This document shows, piece after piece, positions 9,369 through 26,000 of a stretch of 64,000 nt of DNA (position 1 is the stretch's first letter; every line of letters starts with the position of its first letter). The position numbers were made by a program, and so were the translations under genes. The stretch lies in assembly GCF_026222555.1 (NCBI RefSeq), contig NZ_CP098511.1, forward strand, positions 415,501 to 479,500. Reading direction: 5' to 3'. Source of the stretch: Aquimarina sp. ERC-38. GTDB taxonomy: Bacteria; Bacteroidota; Bacteroidia; Flavobacteriales; Flavobacteriaceae. The notes under the pieces are model-generated. The model was not told where the DNA came from and did no database searches. It worked only from the letters and a program-made list of their open reading frames with translations.

Positions 9369-9526
9369 TGCCCCCTAGCCCCCAAAGGGGGGAATGACTC
9401 AGGTTGAGGAAATTTCGACAAGCTCAATTTGTCAAAATTTCGACAAGCTCAATCTGTCAAGACTTCGACAAGTTCAATCTTGTCAATTGAATCAACTTTT
9501 AGACAATCTTTAAAACAATTTGAATT
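9369..9526. repeat. Three tandem 25-bp hairpin repeats after the flotillin gene
   Basis: Three consecutive units (9411-9435, 9436-9460, 9461-9486) share the core TTCGACAAGCTCAAT, and each can fold through GACA...TGTC. They are preceded at 9370-9392 by a C-run/G-run palindrome (CCCCCTAGCCCCCAAAGGGG). These look like the dispersed palindromic repeats common in flavobacterial intergenic DNA; no ORF is evident. Confidence 0.7.
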
Positions 9527-21215: not shown

Positions 21216-21938
21216 TCACTTCGCTATATATTTTAAATAATAACGGTACAGTGCTTCCGGACTGGCTCCTAATGTTTTTTTTAAATGAATTAGAAAAAAG
21301 TGATATTGTAACGTCCAGATTCCATGTTCCCTATATTTTCGTGCTGAAGTTTTAATAATTTTAGGAATTACACAAAAAGCGTCTTCTTTATAAAGCCTGG
21401 AAATAAATTCATTATCTTCATAAATTTTATAGGCTTCATCAAAACCTCTGACATCTTCAAAAAGAGATTTTGTTATAAAAAGACTCTGATCACCGCCTCT
21501 ACAATATTTACTGTCAAATCTGGTAAACCAAGCTATAAATTGCAACCACCAGTGGGTATCGTCAAACTGCATACGGAAACAACCGGCATTGACACCTTTT
21601 TTTATCTCTGCTAATATATATTGGTCAAAGTATTTAGGTGGATAACTATCAGAATGTAAAAAATATAAAATTTCACCTTCTGCAATCGAAGCTCCGTGAT
21701 TCTGTTGAATAGCCCTTCCTTTTTCGGACTGAGAAATTTTTATTTTACGACAACAACATCCTGAATGTTTTTTGCTTTGTATGTAATTTGATATGGCATA
21801 TACCGTACCATCAGAACTTTTTCCGTCAACAATTAAAATTTCGGTAATTAAGGCATCACTACTATGAGAAAATAAATGATCCAGAAAAACCCCTATGGTT
21901 TTTGATTCGTTATAAACCGGAACAATAATACTTATCAT
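21216..21938 (-). CDS. TIGR04283-type family 2 glycosyltransferase
   Basis: 240 aa GT-A glycosyltransferase. It has the nucleotide-sugar binding start MISIIVPVYNESKTIGVFLDHL, EILIVDGKSSDGTV, the segment SEKGRAIQQNHGASIAEGEILYFLHSDSYPP (the HSD in place of DxD) and CRGGDQSLFITKSLFEDVRGFDE. This layout matches the TIGR04283 group, named for proposed arsenosugar synthesis; no arsM or arsS gene is nearby, so the substrate is open. No transmembrane anchor is seen. Confidence 0.8.
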   Translation of the reverse strand: MISIIVPVYNESKTIGVFLDHLFSHSSDALITEILIVDGKSSDGTVYAISNYIQSKKHSGCCCRKIKISQSEKGRAIQQNHGASIAEGEILYFLHSDSYPPKYFDQYILAEIKKGVNAGCFRMQFDDTHWWLQFIAWFTRFDSKYCRGGDQSLFITKSLFEDVRGFDEAYKIYEDNEFISRLYKEDAFCVIPKIIKTSARKYREHGIWTLQYHFFLIHLKKTLGASPEALYRYYLKYIAK

Positions 21939-22154
21939 ATTCTTTTTATCGCATTAACATCTATTAATGCTTACCCCTTTAATCAATTACAACTTTAAAA
22001 TTACCTACATCCTATATGGTCTATAACGATAACATACAATCAGAGTTACCAGACAATGTAGCAACTTTCTTTTTAAAGCAAATTTAACTATTAAAAAAGA
22101 CTATTTAACAAAATATGAAGATATTCCCGGGAGATTTGGAAAAATAAGTAGTAA

Positions 22155-22816
22155 AGGCTCAGGGCAAGCTTCTCGCCCAAACATTTCCATTTCAAAACAA
22201 AAAAAGGAAAAAACTTTACGATTGTTCCTCTATTAACGTTGGTCTACTAGGGCTCCCTTTGGTAGAAGGCTCAGGGCAAGCTTCTCGCCCAAACATTTCC
22301 ATTTCAAAACAAAAAAAGGAAAAAACTTTACGATTGTTCCTCTATTAACGTTGGTCTACTAGGGCTCCCTTTGGTAGAAGGCTCAGGGCAAGCTTCTCGC
22401 CCGAACATTTCCATTTCAAAAACAAAAAAGGAACAAACTTTACGATTGTTCCTCTATTAACGTTGGTCTACTAGGGCTCCCTTCGGTAGAAGGCTCAGGG
22501 CAAGCTTCTCGCCCAAACATTTTCATTTCAAAAACAAAAAAGGAACAAACTTTACGATTGTTCCTCTATTAACGTTGGTCTACTAGGGCTCCCTTTGGTA
22601 GAAGGCTCAGGGCAAGCTTCTCGCCCAAACATTTCCATTTCAAAAACAAAAAAGGAACAAACTTTACGATTGTTCCTCTATTAACGTTGGTCTACTAGGG
22701 CTCCCTTCGAATAGAAGGCTCAGGGCAAGCTTCTCGCCCAAACATTTCCATTTCAAAAACAAAAAAGGAACAAACTTTACGATTGTTCCTCTATTAACGT
22801 TGGTCTACTAGGGCTC
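22155..22816 (-). repeat. 112-bp tandem repeat array containing tRNA-Gln 3' ends
   Basis: Nearly six copies, period 112 bp (113 next to the tRNA). Read on the minus strand, each unit begins with the last 16 nt of the tRNA-Gln acceptor/T-arm (GAGCCCTAGTAGACCA), then ACGTTAATA, a terminator-like hairpin, and a second dyad GGGC...GCCC. tRNA-end fragments start at plus positions 22240, 22352, 22464, 22576 and 22688; the real tRNA end is at 22801. Units nearest the tRNA match each other better than the two outermost, which carry a GGAAAAAAC variant. Confidence 0.95.
22761..22789 (-). terminator. Intrinsic terminator of tRNA-Gln, first array copy
   Basis: Minus strand GGAACAA ... TTGTTCC, 7-bp stem with 9-nt loop followed by six T, 11 nt after the tRNA discriminator. 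Copies recur every 112 bp in the array. Confidence 0.75.
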
Positions 22817-22872
22817 GAACCTAGACTCTTCTGGACCAAAACCAGACGTGTTGCCAGTTACACCATAGACCA
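22800..22872 (-). tRNA. tRNA-Gln (anticodon TTG)
   Basis: 73 nt cloverleaf. Acceptor TGGTCTA/TAGACCA (7 bp), anticodon stem TCTGG/CCAGA with loop TTTTGGT giving anticodon TTG, and T-arm CTAGG-TTCGAGC-CCTAG. CCA is not encoded. Its 3' 16 nt are reiterated downstream in the tandem array. Confidence 0.95.
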
Positions 22873-22889
22873 TTAACCTAATGCGGGTG

Positions 22890-22920
22890 CAAATTTAAAA
22901 CATTCTTTTAGGTATCCCAA
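22890..22920 (-). promoter_or_regulatory. Promoter of tRNA-Gln
   Basis: On the minus strand TTG (22918-22920), 20 bases, TAAATTTG (22890-22897), followed 17 nt later by the tRNA 5' end. Confidence 0.65.
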
Positions 22921-23071
22921 CTAAATTAAATATTTTTTCAAAAAAATTAGTTATAAAAGCAACAATTAAAATAACTACCCGTCTTATGAATATTAAGGAT
23001 AAGGCGAATAAAGAATTGACAAAAGGTATTTTATTATTAAATTCGCCACACTGTATTTAAGAACAAAATTT

Positions 23072-26000
23072 ATGGGCACATTTGATTTTAGCAAATGGAA
23101 TAAAATTTTAGGCTGGGTAACTTTTTTAATAGCGATAACCGTATATGCTTTAACGGTTGAACCTACCGCCAGTTTCTGGGATGCAGGAGAATATATCGCT
23201 ACCTCTTCAAAATTACAGGTAGGGCATCCCCCGGGAGCCCCCCTCTTTCAAATGATCGGGGCTTTTGCCTCTATTTTTGCCAGCGACCCAACTTCAGTAG
23301 CTTTAGCAGTTAATATGACCTCTGCATTTGCTAGTGCTTTTGCCATTTTATTTATGTTTTGGTCCATAACCTTATTGTTACGAAAAATTATCCGTATTGA
23401 AGAAGAATTTACTACTGGTAAGGGAATTGCCGTATTAGGAAGTGCTTTTGTAGGCTCTTTGGCTTTCGCTTTTACCGATAGTTTTTGGTTTAATGCCGTA
23501 GAAGCCGAGGTTTATGCCATGGCCACCTGTGTATTGTCCATTATGTTTTACCTGGGGCTATTATGGGATCGAGATATGCATAAACCCAGGGGAGACCGCT
23601 GGCTAATTCTAATTGCATTTGTTGCCGGACTGTCTTTTGGGATACATTTTATGGGATTGCTTTCTATTCCCGCCATTGGACTTCTGTATTACTTTAAGAA
23701 TTACAAAGTAACCATAAAGAGTTTTATCGTTGCGAATATTACGGTAATTGCCATTCTACTTTTTATATTTAAACTGCTCTTACCTTCTACCCTTAAATTA
23801 TTTGGTGGGCTGGAAGTATTTTTTGTAAATAGTCTAAGTATGCCCTTTAATTCCGGAACCATATTTACCGCTTTAATTATTGCTGTTGCCTTTTATTATG
23901 CGTTACGTTCCAGCCGAAATAAAGGCTATCGTGCCCTTTATACCGGGCTGCTTTGTACCGTTTTTATCCTAATAGGTTTTTCCAGTTGGATTATGTTACC
24001 GATCCGTGCCAATGCCGGTACGGTTATTAATGAAAATAACCCAAATAACGCCCGGGAACTATTAGCGTATTACAATATGGAGCAATACCCGGAAACCCAC
24101 TTGTTCTACGGCCCCCAATTTACAGAGATTTATTCCGGACTGGATGAAGATGATCCCTATGAGGATGATAAACCAAAATATGAGAAAAATACAAAAACAG
24201 GTAAGTACGAAATTGTAAACGACTGGAAAAACGCTAAGCAAAATATTGACGATAACCACAAATCCATCCTACCCCGAATGTGGAGTACGGAGCATATTGC
24301 CAATTATATGGATTTTACCGGTCCGATTAAGTTTACTATCAAACCGGAATACCAGGATCAAGAAGAATTATTACAAGCCGTTTCACAATTCCGTAGAAAA
24401 TACGCTACGGGGCAATTGGACAACGATGATTATAACAAATTTTTACGCTCGTTTGGTAAATACCTTGACGTAGAAAAACCTTCATTAGGTGCTAATATAG
24501 CTTACTTATTAGAGTACCAGATGGGATATATGTACTGGCGTTATTTTATGTGGAATTTTGCCGGACGACAAGATGATAATCAGGGGAGGTATACGGATTT
24601 ACAAGGTAACTGGCTAAGTGGTATTAAATGGATTGATGAATTACACTTAGGTTCGCAGGATAACCTACCTACGGATGCTACTAAAAATAAGGCAAGAAAT
24701 ACCTATTATTTTCTTCCGCTTATCCTAGGATTGATCGGTTTGGCTTTCCATTCTCAAAAAGATTTAAAAAGCTTTTGGGTTTTATTAATATTTTTTCTTT
24801 TTACCGGCCTGGCTTTGAAAATTTATTTAAACGAACGCCCATTTGAACCCAGGGAACGGGACTACGCTCTGGTGGGTTCTTTTTACGTATTTTCTATCTG
24901 GATTGGATTTGGGGTGTATGCTTTATTTGATATGCTGAAGGAATACCTAAAACCTAAAATCCTGGCACCTATTGTAACCGCAGTATGCTTCTTAGCAGTT
25001 CCGGTGTTATTAGCTTCAGAAAATTGGGATGATCATGACCGTTCTAACCGGTATACGGCGCAATCTATGGCAAAAATGTACCTGCAATCCTGCCAGGAAG
25101 ATGCTATTTTATTTACTATCGGGGATAATGATACCTTTGCCCTGTGGTATGCGCAAGAAATTGAAGAGTACCGTACGGATGTACGAACTGTAAACACCAG
25201 TTTGTTTGCTACCGACTGGTATATCGATCAAATGAAACGAGCAGCCTATGAAGGAAAACCCATTCCTTCACAACTCACCCATGAATTTTACCGTTTTGGA
25301 AGTAATGATGTGGTCTATCATAAACCAATCACGAAAGATACTATGTTGATCCAAAACTGGATGAAGTGGATACAATCTGATGACCCCAGGACTAAAGGAG
25401 ATCTGCAAAATGGTAAAAAAGTAAACACTTTTCCAACCAAGCATGTTCGCATTCCGGTAGATAAAGAAACGGTTCTTAAAAATGGAATTGTAAAACCTGA
25501 AGATGCGGATTTAATTGTGCCTTATGTAGATATTTATATTAAAAACGATATCCTGTTAAAGAACCGCTTGTTGATGCTGGATATTATTGCTAATAATAAC
25601 TGGGAGCGACCAATTTATTTTACCGGAGGTAGTTTTGGGGATGATGACTATTTATGGATGAAGGATTATTTACAACTTGACGGGGTAACCTATAAATTAG
25701 TACCTATCAGAACGCCGGTTGATAAAAGAAACCCTTATGAAATGGGACGAATTGATACCGACCTTATGTATGATAACGTCATGAGTTGGAACTGGGGAAA
25801 TAGTGAAAATCCAGATATCTATCATGACCCTGAAACCCGAAAAAATGCAATTACCTATCGAAGTAACCTGGCTAGATTAGTCGAGGCTTTGCTAGCTAAA
25901 GGAGATAAGAAAAAAGCTAAAGAAGTATTGGACCTGGGTATGGAAAAAATGCCAATTGAGTATTATGAATATTATACTTTACTGGAACCCTATGTAACCG

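Follow-up and report, generated by a model that had tools for sequence, protein, structure and literature searches.

The window, i.e., the whole stretch of 64,000 nucleotides that was analysed, lies in the single-contig genome (4.43 Mb) of Aquimarina sp. ERC-38. On the minus strand it carries a gene for tRNA-Gln followed by six tandem units, the last of which is incomplete:

22799..22872, minus strand: tRNA-Gln(TTG), called by ARAGORN; the part copied downstream runs from A58 to the 3' end (22799-22815)
22703..22815, minus strand: unit 1, 113 nt; tRNA 3' end, leader with hairpin and T tract (22789-22761), core 22694-22742
22591..22702, minus strand: unit 2, 112 nt; opens with copy 1 (22686-22702), core match 22582-22629
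22479..22590, minus strand: unit 3, 112 nt; opens with copy 2 (22574-22590), core match 22470-22517
22367..22478, minus strand: unit 4, 112 nt; opens with copy 3 (22462-22478), core match 22358-22405
22255..22366, minus strand: unit 5, 112 nt; opens with copy 4 (22350-22366), core match 22246-22293; changed T-tract hairpin
22154..22254, minus strand: unit 6, incomplete; copy 5 (22238-22254), changed T-tract hairpin, core ending after GCCCTGAGCCTT

Within the 64-kb window, the 17-mer AGCCCTAGTAGACCAAC, which spans A58 to the called end of the gene, has six occurrences on the minus strand and none on the plus strand: once as the tRNA gene's own end (22799-22815) and five times as an exact copy. 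The copies are spaced by 113 nt and then four times by 112 nt. A first-pass annotation, made from the letters alone, had described five 112-bp units that each start with the final 16 nt of the gene. The five exact copies stand; the copied block, however, begins at A58 and is 17 nt long, the identity spans the whole unit, and one spacing is 113. TRF reports a period of 112, 5.9 copies, 97% matches and a score of 1240, and the units are 95-98% identical. Within a unit, the tRNA-end copy is followed by a hairpin with a T tract, by the sequence GGGC-GAGAAG-CTTGCCCTGAGCCTTCTACC(G/A)AAGGG and by the next copy, into which the core match of unit 1 extends. The repeated terminator-like hairpin and GGGC/GCCC dyad of the first-pass annotation were both found in the units. 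The hairpin, read by eye, has a 7-bp stem and a 9-nt loop, and because of this loop it is missed by a strict terminator scan, which listed no terminators between 22000 and 23100. Changes in it are common to the two units most distal to tRNA-Gln. No tRNA-end copy follows the last unit, the core of which stops at 22154. All listed open reading frames lie outside the array. One unit of the window folds unremarkably (z -0.61), and values of -2.31, -0.06 and -1.19 were obtained for other single units. Elsewhere in the window, at 9410-9486, a 25-bp tandem repeat containing TTCGACAAGCTCA is present, akin by eye to the palindromes of the form TGAGC..GTCGAAG that are dispersed in this genome.

The array is real, and the same layout was observed behind the tRNA-Gln genes of other Aquimarina and of Gillisia, Salinimicrobium and Mariniflexile. 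A 61-nt query retrieved arrays behind tRNAs for Thr, Met, Asn, Leu, Asp, Trp and Ile as well. A restriction of the element to tRNA-Gln was therefore rejected: it does occur behind this flavobacterial tRNA, as had been noted, without being special to it. When all 40 tRNAs of the ERC-38 genome were checked, exact partial copies of the tRNA end were found behind nine, namely Gln, three Met (at 524 kb, 1737 kb and 2802 kb), Lys, Ile in two of the three rRNA operons, Gly and Trp. Eight of the nine are accompanied by the core. The exception is the tRNA-Met(CAT) at 2802 kb (L194, 2801400-2803700), which has a GGATCGTGCC T-loop and of which the copies extend deeper into the T-arm without a GAGAAG core. 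Remnants with four mismatches follow the Thr and Leu(TAA) tRNAs of the same genome, and decayed examples were seen at L208, L178 and, for Thr, in L191. At L204 (G042:C6:75000-77500), the tRNA-Gln gene itself is tandem, with five full genes 117 bp apart; at L205 there are two.

A covariance model, R1, built from an alignment of 26 elements, matches 56 of 149 Flavobacteriaceae genomes (one per genus, ERC-38 included). Among the matches listed, 106 outside ERC-38 were classed. A copy of the end of an adjacent same-strand tRNA, with at most five mismatches, follows 93 of these (83 with at most two, 10 with three to five), five have a copy with more than five, and eight have no predicted tRNA, although several of the latter still look like tRNA ends by eye. 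A same-strand tRNA was predicted within 1.2 kb upstream of 98 of the 106, and in Flavobacteriaceae the copies cover at least 13 anticodons. L243 and L233 combine a perfect arm with an end resembling that of tRNA-Leu(TAG), as in the Leu-TAG end of L308, while no tRNA is predicted near them; they are orphan copies. At E<=1e-4, matches were obtained in 19 of 196 genomes of the order and in 12 of 247 of the phylum, counts in which ERC-38 and overlaps are included. In nine of the 12 loci L301-L312 the match goes with a copy behind a predicted tRNA, including Arg and Leu tRNAs from two families that do not belong to the class. An exact 18-mer scan of viral contigs gave three stretches: a predicted tRNA-Lys with a copy, a tRNA-Asn-like end and a chance match. 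No description of this element in Bacteroidota was found in the open-licence papers searched. The element is tied to tRNA 3' ends, stands behind many isoacceptors and is present in some genomes and absent from their close relatives.

Its unit consists of the tRNA copy (A58 to the 3' end), a leader, an arm complementary to tRNA nucleotides 59-65, and a GAGAAG core with a REP-like hairpin, after which the next tRNA-end copy follows. At least four strict pairs between the arm and the element's own copy are formed in 93 of 141 distinct elements, compared to a mean of 29.8 and a maximum of 42 in 500 shuffles of the copies. By position, the signal covers tRNA nucleotides 59-65 and falls to background from 66 on (134 elements). 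In the 26-element alignment, 90.2% of the cells of the arm and inner stem pair, versus 80.3% (sd 1.3) in shuffles, and the covariation score is 0.381 versus 0.205, a value reached in 0 of 500 shuffles. Core columns 14 and 17, a pair absent from the model, hold U-A in 93, C-G in 26 and A-A in one of 120 distinct rows. Over all pairs of the model, 1057 cells are Watson-Crick, 129 G-U, 25 A-C and 79 other, in an alignment that was fitted to the model, which flatters the paired share. The large excess of G-U over A-C identifies the folded strand as the tRNA-sense strand. The arm is not strictly maintained, since in diverged copies it fits the tRNA version alone in 17 and the copy alone in five of 44 cells. 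As sources of the arm, copying of the 5' strand of the T-stem and inversion of its 3' strand fit equally well, with counts of 14 and 14 where the two differ (position 64). The inverted repeat made up of arm and copy is matched to the tRNA and is not an end that belongs to the element itself. At L225 the tRNA and its copy share a change that is missing from the arm, which would be an example of concerted evolution.

The leaders follow the transcription of the tRNA gene: a terminator-like hairpin is present if the tRNA ends its transcript, and none is found in operons. Of 102 elements, 65 have such a hairpin after the tRNA and ahead of the core, among them 26 of 26 for Gln, as opposed to 0 of 5 for Ile, 0 of 10 for Trp, 0 of 3 for Asp and 0 of 3 for Arg. 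The element thus respects whether the tRNA is the end of the transcript, as expected of a tolerated insertion, and this places the core downstream of the stop at a large number of loci. Many leaders recur after the tRNA-end copy. The cores themselves do not cluster by genome (0.432 versus 0.422 upon permutation, with 799 of 2000 permutations as high; one element per genome and tRNA, 72 of 85 usable), nor by tRNA, which gives no sign of a recent burst within genomes.

Filled and empty sites could be compared directly at tRNA-Gln. L047 carries a 226-bp insertion (2 x 113, two units) behind an intact tRNA, with the last copy joining the flank of the empty site. L046, L066, L076 and L058, which form a well-supported clade with L047 in a tree of the neighbouring gene, have no insertion. 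The terminator-bearing leader of L047 is not the resident one and resembles the leader of L050. The empty site and direct repeat that mark a MITE-like element are both seen in this comparison, the direction of which is taken to be that of an insertion; an exact loss between the direct repeats would look identical. Across the tRNA-Gln tree as a whole, partial copies are present in nine ingroup rows out of 41. A second case lies within ERC-38, where the element follows tRNA-Ile in the rRNA operons L180 and L197 and is absent from L192, the difference being 61 nt; L192 is a natural empty site within the same genome.

A parallel is available in E. coli K-12, of which the tyrT repeats have long been an unexplained curiosity. 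Three copies lie behind tyrV and one behind tyrT, and all of these repeats open at A58 of tRNA-Tyr (AATCCTTCCCCCACCACCA). In the three tyrV repeats a 10-nt arm, GGGGAAGGAT, complementary to tRNA nucleotides 59-68, is followed by GAGAAG, the hexamer of the flavobacterial core. In E. coli this hexamer was found only there, the tyrT-tyrV unit and proK having GAGAAC. The analogy with tyrT and rtT drawn in the first-pass annotation holds in detail, with regard to the A58 start, the fitted arm and the GAGAAG of the tyrV repeats. Seven K-12 regions with 28 predicted tRNAs contain 13 copies behind 11 tRNAs (Tyr, Pro, Arg and Lys), a count that takes in partial ends and leaves out full second tRNAs. 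The bearers include proK, argV/Z/Q and lysT/W/Y/Z/Q, and the copies are preceded by an arm-like complementary stretch. No copies were found in these regions behind argX, hisR, leuT, proM, proL and the metT-glnX tRNAs. In six of the 13 (five Lys and argQ) base 58 is C, and identity therefore starts at 59. The specificity of the arm can be assessed only for Tyr (10 versus 5) and for one Arg (8 versus 6), where it is clear, because the tRNAs share AATCCT.

The array is best explained, with a probability of about 0.52, by the expansion of a tRNA-trailer element that is widespread and of the same kind as rtT in E. coli. This would be palindromic DNA that re-creates the tRNA end upon insertion, with tandem expansion and concerted evolution to follow. 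Such an element would be non-autonomous, with its insertion boundary in the T-loop (57|58), and insertion would restore the tRNA by bringing or duplicating the end from A58 to 73. The long direct repeats flanking it would then allow recombination to expand and contract the array and to keep the match to the tRNA. On the tRNA-sense strand the arm would form a stem like that of a T-arm. This stem might be what a mobilising enzyme recognises on single-stranded DNA, or it might prevent pairing between the spare tail and the body of the tRNA in a read-through RNA. Several observations count against a DNA element. No mobilising enzyme was found, and Y1/RAYT is absent from the element-bearing genome G089; the covariation on the sense strand fits selection on an RNA equally well; the clean empty sites could be exact losses via recombination between direct repeats; and the copies at L194 occur without this core. 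The lack of clustering among the cores, the loose upkeep of the arm and the unremarkable folding of the window unit count on the same side. A wider form of the proposal is considerably more tentative. According to this, Bacteroidota and Enterobacterales have in common the plan of one class of tRNA-customised hairpin elements, for which the T-loop of nearly every tRNA gene can serve as the insertion site. The left arm would be written by the element to complement nucleotides 59-65 of the tRNA in question, so that each insertion would form a false T-arm plus a spare tRNA end, with the E. coli rtT RNA being one insertion that was later processed. If this were so, a mobile or template-switched element with ends copied from its target would exist. 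Reverse transcription of a mature tRNA, stopped at the modified base 58, was set aside by reasoning, as the copies lack CCA where the gene lacks it and run into the flank.

The main rival is that the units are maintained as a functional trailer RNA, a read-through transcript being processed at the spare tRNA end to give an rtT-like RNA that acts as a small RNA, sponge or processing decoy. The end of the annotated rttR of E. coli, at L342:1067, coincides precisely with the final base of the CCA in the first copy. The covariation and G-U excess on the tRNA-sense strand point the same way, and the operonic elements, having no terminator in their leaders, should be transcribed. A passage in PMC4986893 further reports Northern signals for RtT relatives in Actinobacillus and, on a role in the stringent response, refers to Bosl and Kersten. 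Against these stands the terminator-like hairpin ahead of the core, in the window as in the 65 elements counted above, from which little read-through is to be expected. The presence of the element is also patchy, as the tRNA-Gln tree shows, and decayed copies occur. A trailer RNA is on balance unlikely as the explanation, and of the roles proposed first a processed small RNA keeps some standing; attachment-site relics and back-up terminators fit poorly. Back-up terminators, or an insulation of transcription behind tRNA genes, would agree with the 65 terminator-like leaders and with the six stacked hairpin and T-tract blocks of the array. They leave unexplained the operonic cases for Ile, Trp, Asp and Arg as well as the tRNA copy and the arm, and no terminator between 22000 and 23100 was listed by the strict scan. 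This reading is very improbable.

Hardly more probable is that the copies are attachment-site relics, left by integrases that use tRNA T-loops. A second tRNA-Gln end does lie away from the gene in two Aquimarina genomes (L065/G620 and L060/G621); the one in G621 has the same first base, A58, and is located 13.3 kb downstream of the gene within one contig. These appear to be two real insertions at tRNA-Gln, yet neither second copy has a GAGAAG core within 150 nt ahead of it, and relics of this sort should not take the form of gene-free inserts of 40-130 bp that carry a conserved hairpin, which speaks against the integrase origin suggested in the first-pass annotation. An open reading frame beside the second copy in G621 (L340) encodes, to judge by a motif, a putative Fic protein. 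It is also improbable, if somewhat less so, that slippage simply duplicated the tRNA 3' end in tandem along with its terminator, without a specific mechanism and with a REP-like palindrome trapped where the duplicates join. The near-identity of the window units, the many leaders repeated after the copy and the tandem tRNA-Gln genes of L204 and L205 agree with such a slippage. Slippage gives no rule, however, by which the A58 boundary and the core would recur behind 13 anticodons and in two phyla, with arms that match each tRNA. The slippage reading is hard to hold for the family and right for changes in copy number inside one array. Finally, near-identical tandem copies can be miscounted in assembly, but the genome is a single contig and one- and two-copy forms occur in many independent assemblies. 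An artefact, to which next to no weight is given, is refuted for the element itself; the exact copy number of the array is provisional.

With the A58 boundary, the fitted arm, the palindrome and the spare tRNA end recurring behind many tRNAs of another phylum, the tyrT curiosity becomes a testable rule with covariation. The R1 model finds such elements, and the filled and empty pairs, together with the paralogous rRNA operons, make the choice between a mobile element and a trailer RNA decidable by experiment. For annotators, it follows that partial tRNA ends behind tRNA genes need not be scars of phages or ICEs.

Among the systems to which the array can be compared, integrative elements (ICEs, prophages and IMEs) likewise keep the 3' end of the tRNA whole and produce a direct repeat starting in the T-arm, as described in PMC9897764. 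They differ in that the present element has no genes or integrase, is 40-130 bp long and carries a conserved hairpin at the joint; in place of an att-bounded gene segment with an integrase, the array has units of 112 nt without an open reading frame. With REP, BIME and REPIN sequences and their RAYT, the array shares the short palindrome, and related TGAGC..GTCGAAG hairpins are dispersed in the ERC-38 genome (14 sites versus one for a reversed-pattern control). The GAGAAG element, unlike these, occurs in fixed association with tRNA ends and has an arm and a copy that suit the tRNA, and a dispersal independent of tRNAs, as in REP, was not found (98 of the 106 classed matches near a tRNA, 93 with a copy). 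One group of the dispersed hairpins (L118, about 1265.7-1265.9 kb in ERC-38) lies behind tRNA-Asn, on the opposite strand and without a tRNA-end copy. Y1/RAYT genes (PF01797) were detected in six of the seven genomes searched, two of them in ERC-38, and none in G089, which has six elements; RAYT-driven movement of the REP type has no support.

RtT (Rfam RF00391) is the closest counterpart. It lies behind a tRNA, holds a copy from A58, has an arm complementary to the following T-stem strand and then GAGAAG, is tandem and has a palindromic filling. Each of these was found in the array: the unit stands behind a tRNA gene and contains its 3' end from A58, and the arm complementary to the copied T-stem strand is followed by GAGAAG, in E. 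coli in the tyrV repeats only. The proK, arg and lys copies of E. coli likewise come after an arm-like stretch complementary to the copy, while those of Arg and Lys have a core of AACGTTGC..GCAACGGCCCGAAGGGCGAG and not GAGAAG. A passage in PMC2965389 places sequences like rtT among the BIMEs, which parallels the dispersed TGAGC..GTCGAAG hairpins seen here. The spacing in the E. coli array is 178 nt; inside, tyrT has about 80 nt of other hairpins, whereas the Bacteroidota have about 30 nt, and the E. coli copies carry CCA. In Bacteroidota a terminator is often found ahead of the core. The RF00391 model gave no match in the window at 21900-23100 (E<=10) or in 17 Bacteroidota loci (E<=5), the gathering cut-off of 45 bits not being reached, and recovered four matches of 133-138 bits in the E. 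coli K-12 control. The array is thus rtT-like in its plan, probably also in its working, and not a scored member of RtT, because the Rfam model fails on it.
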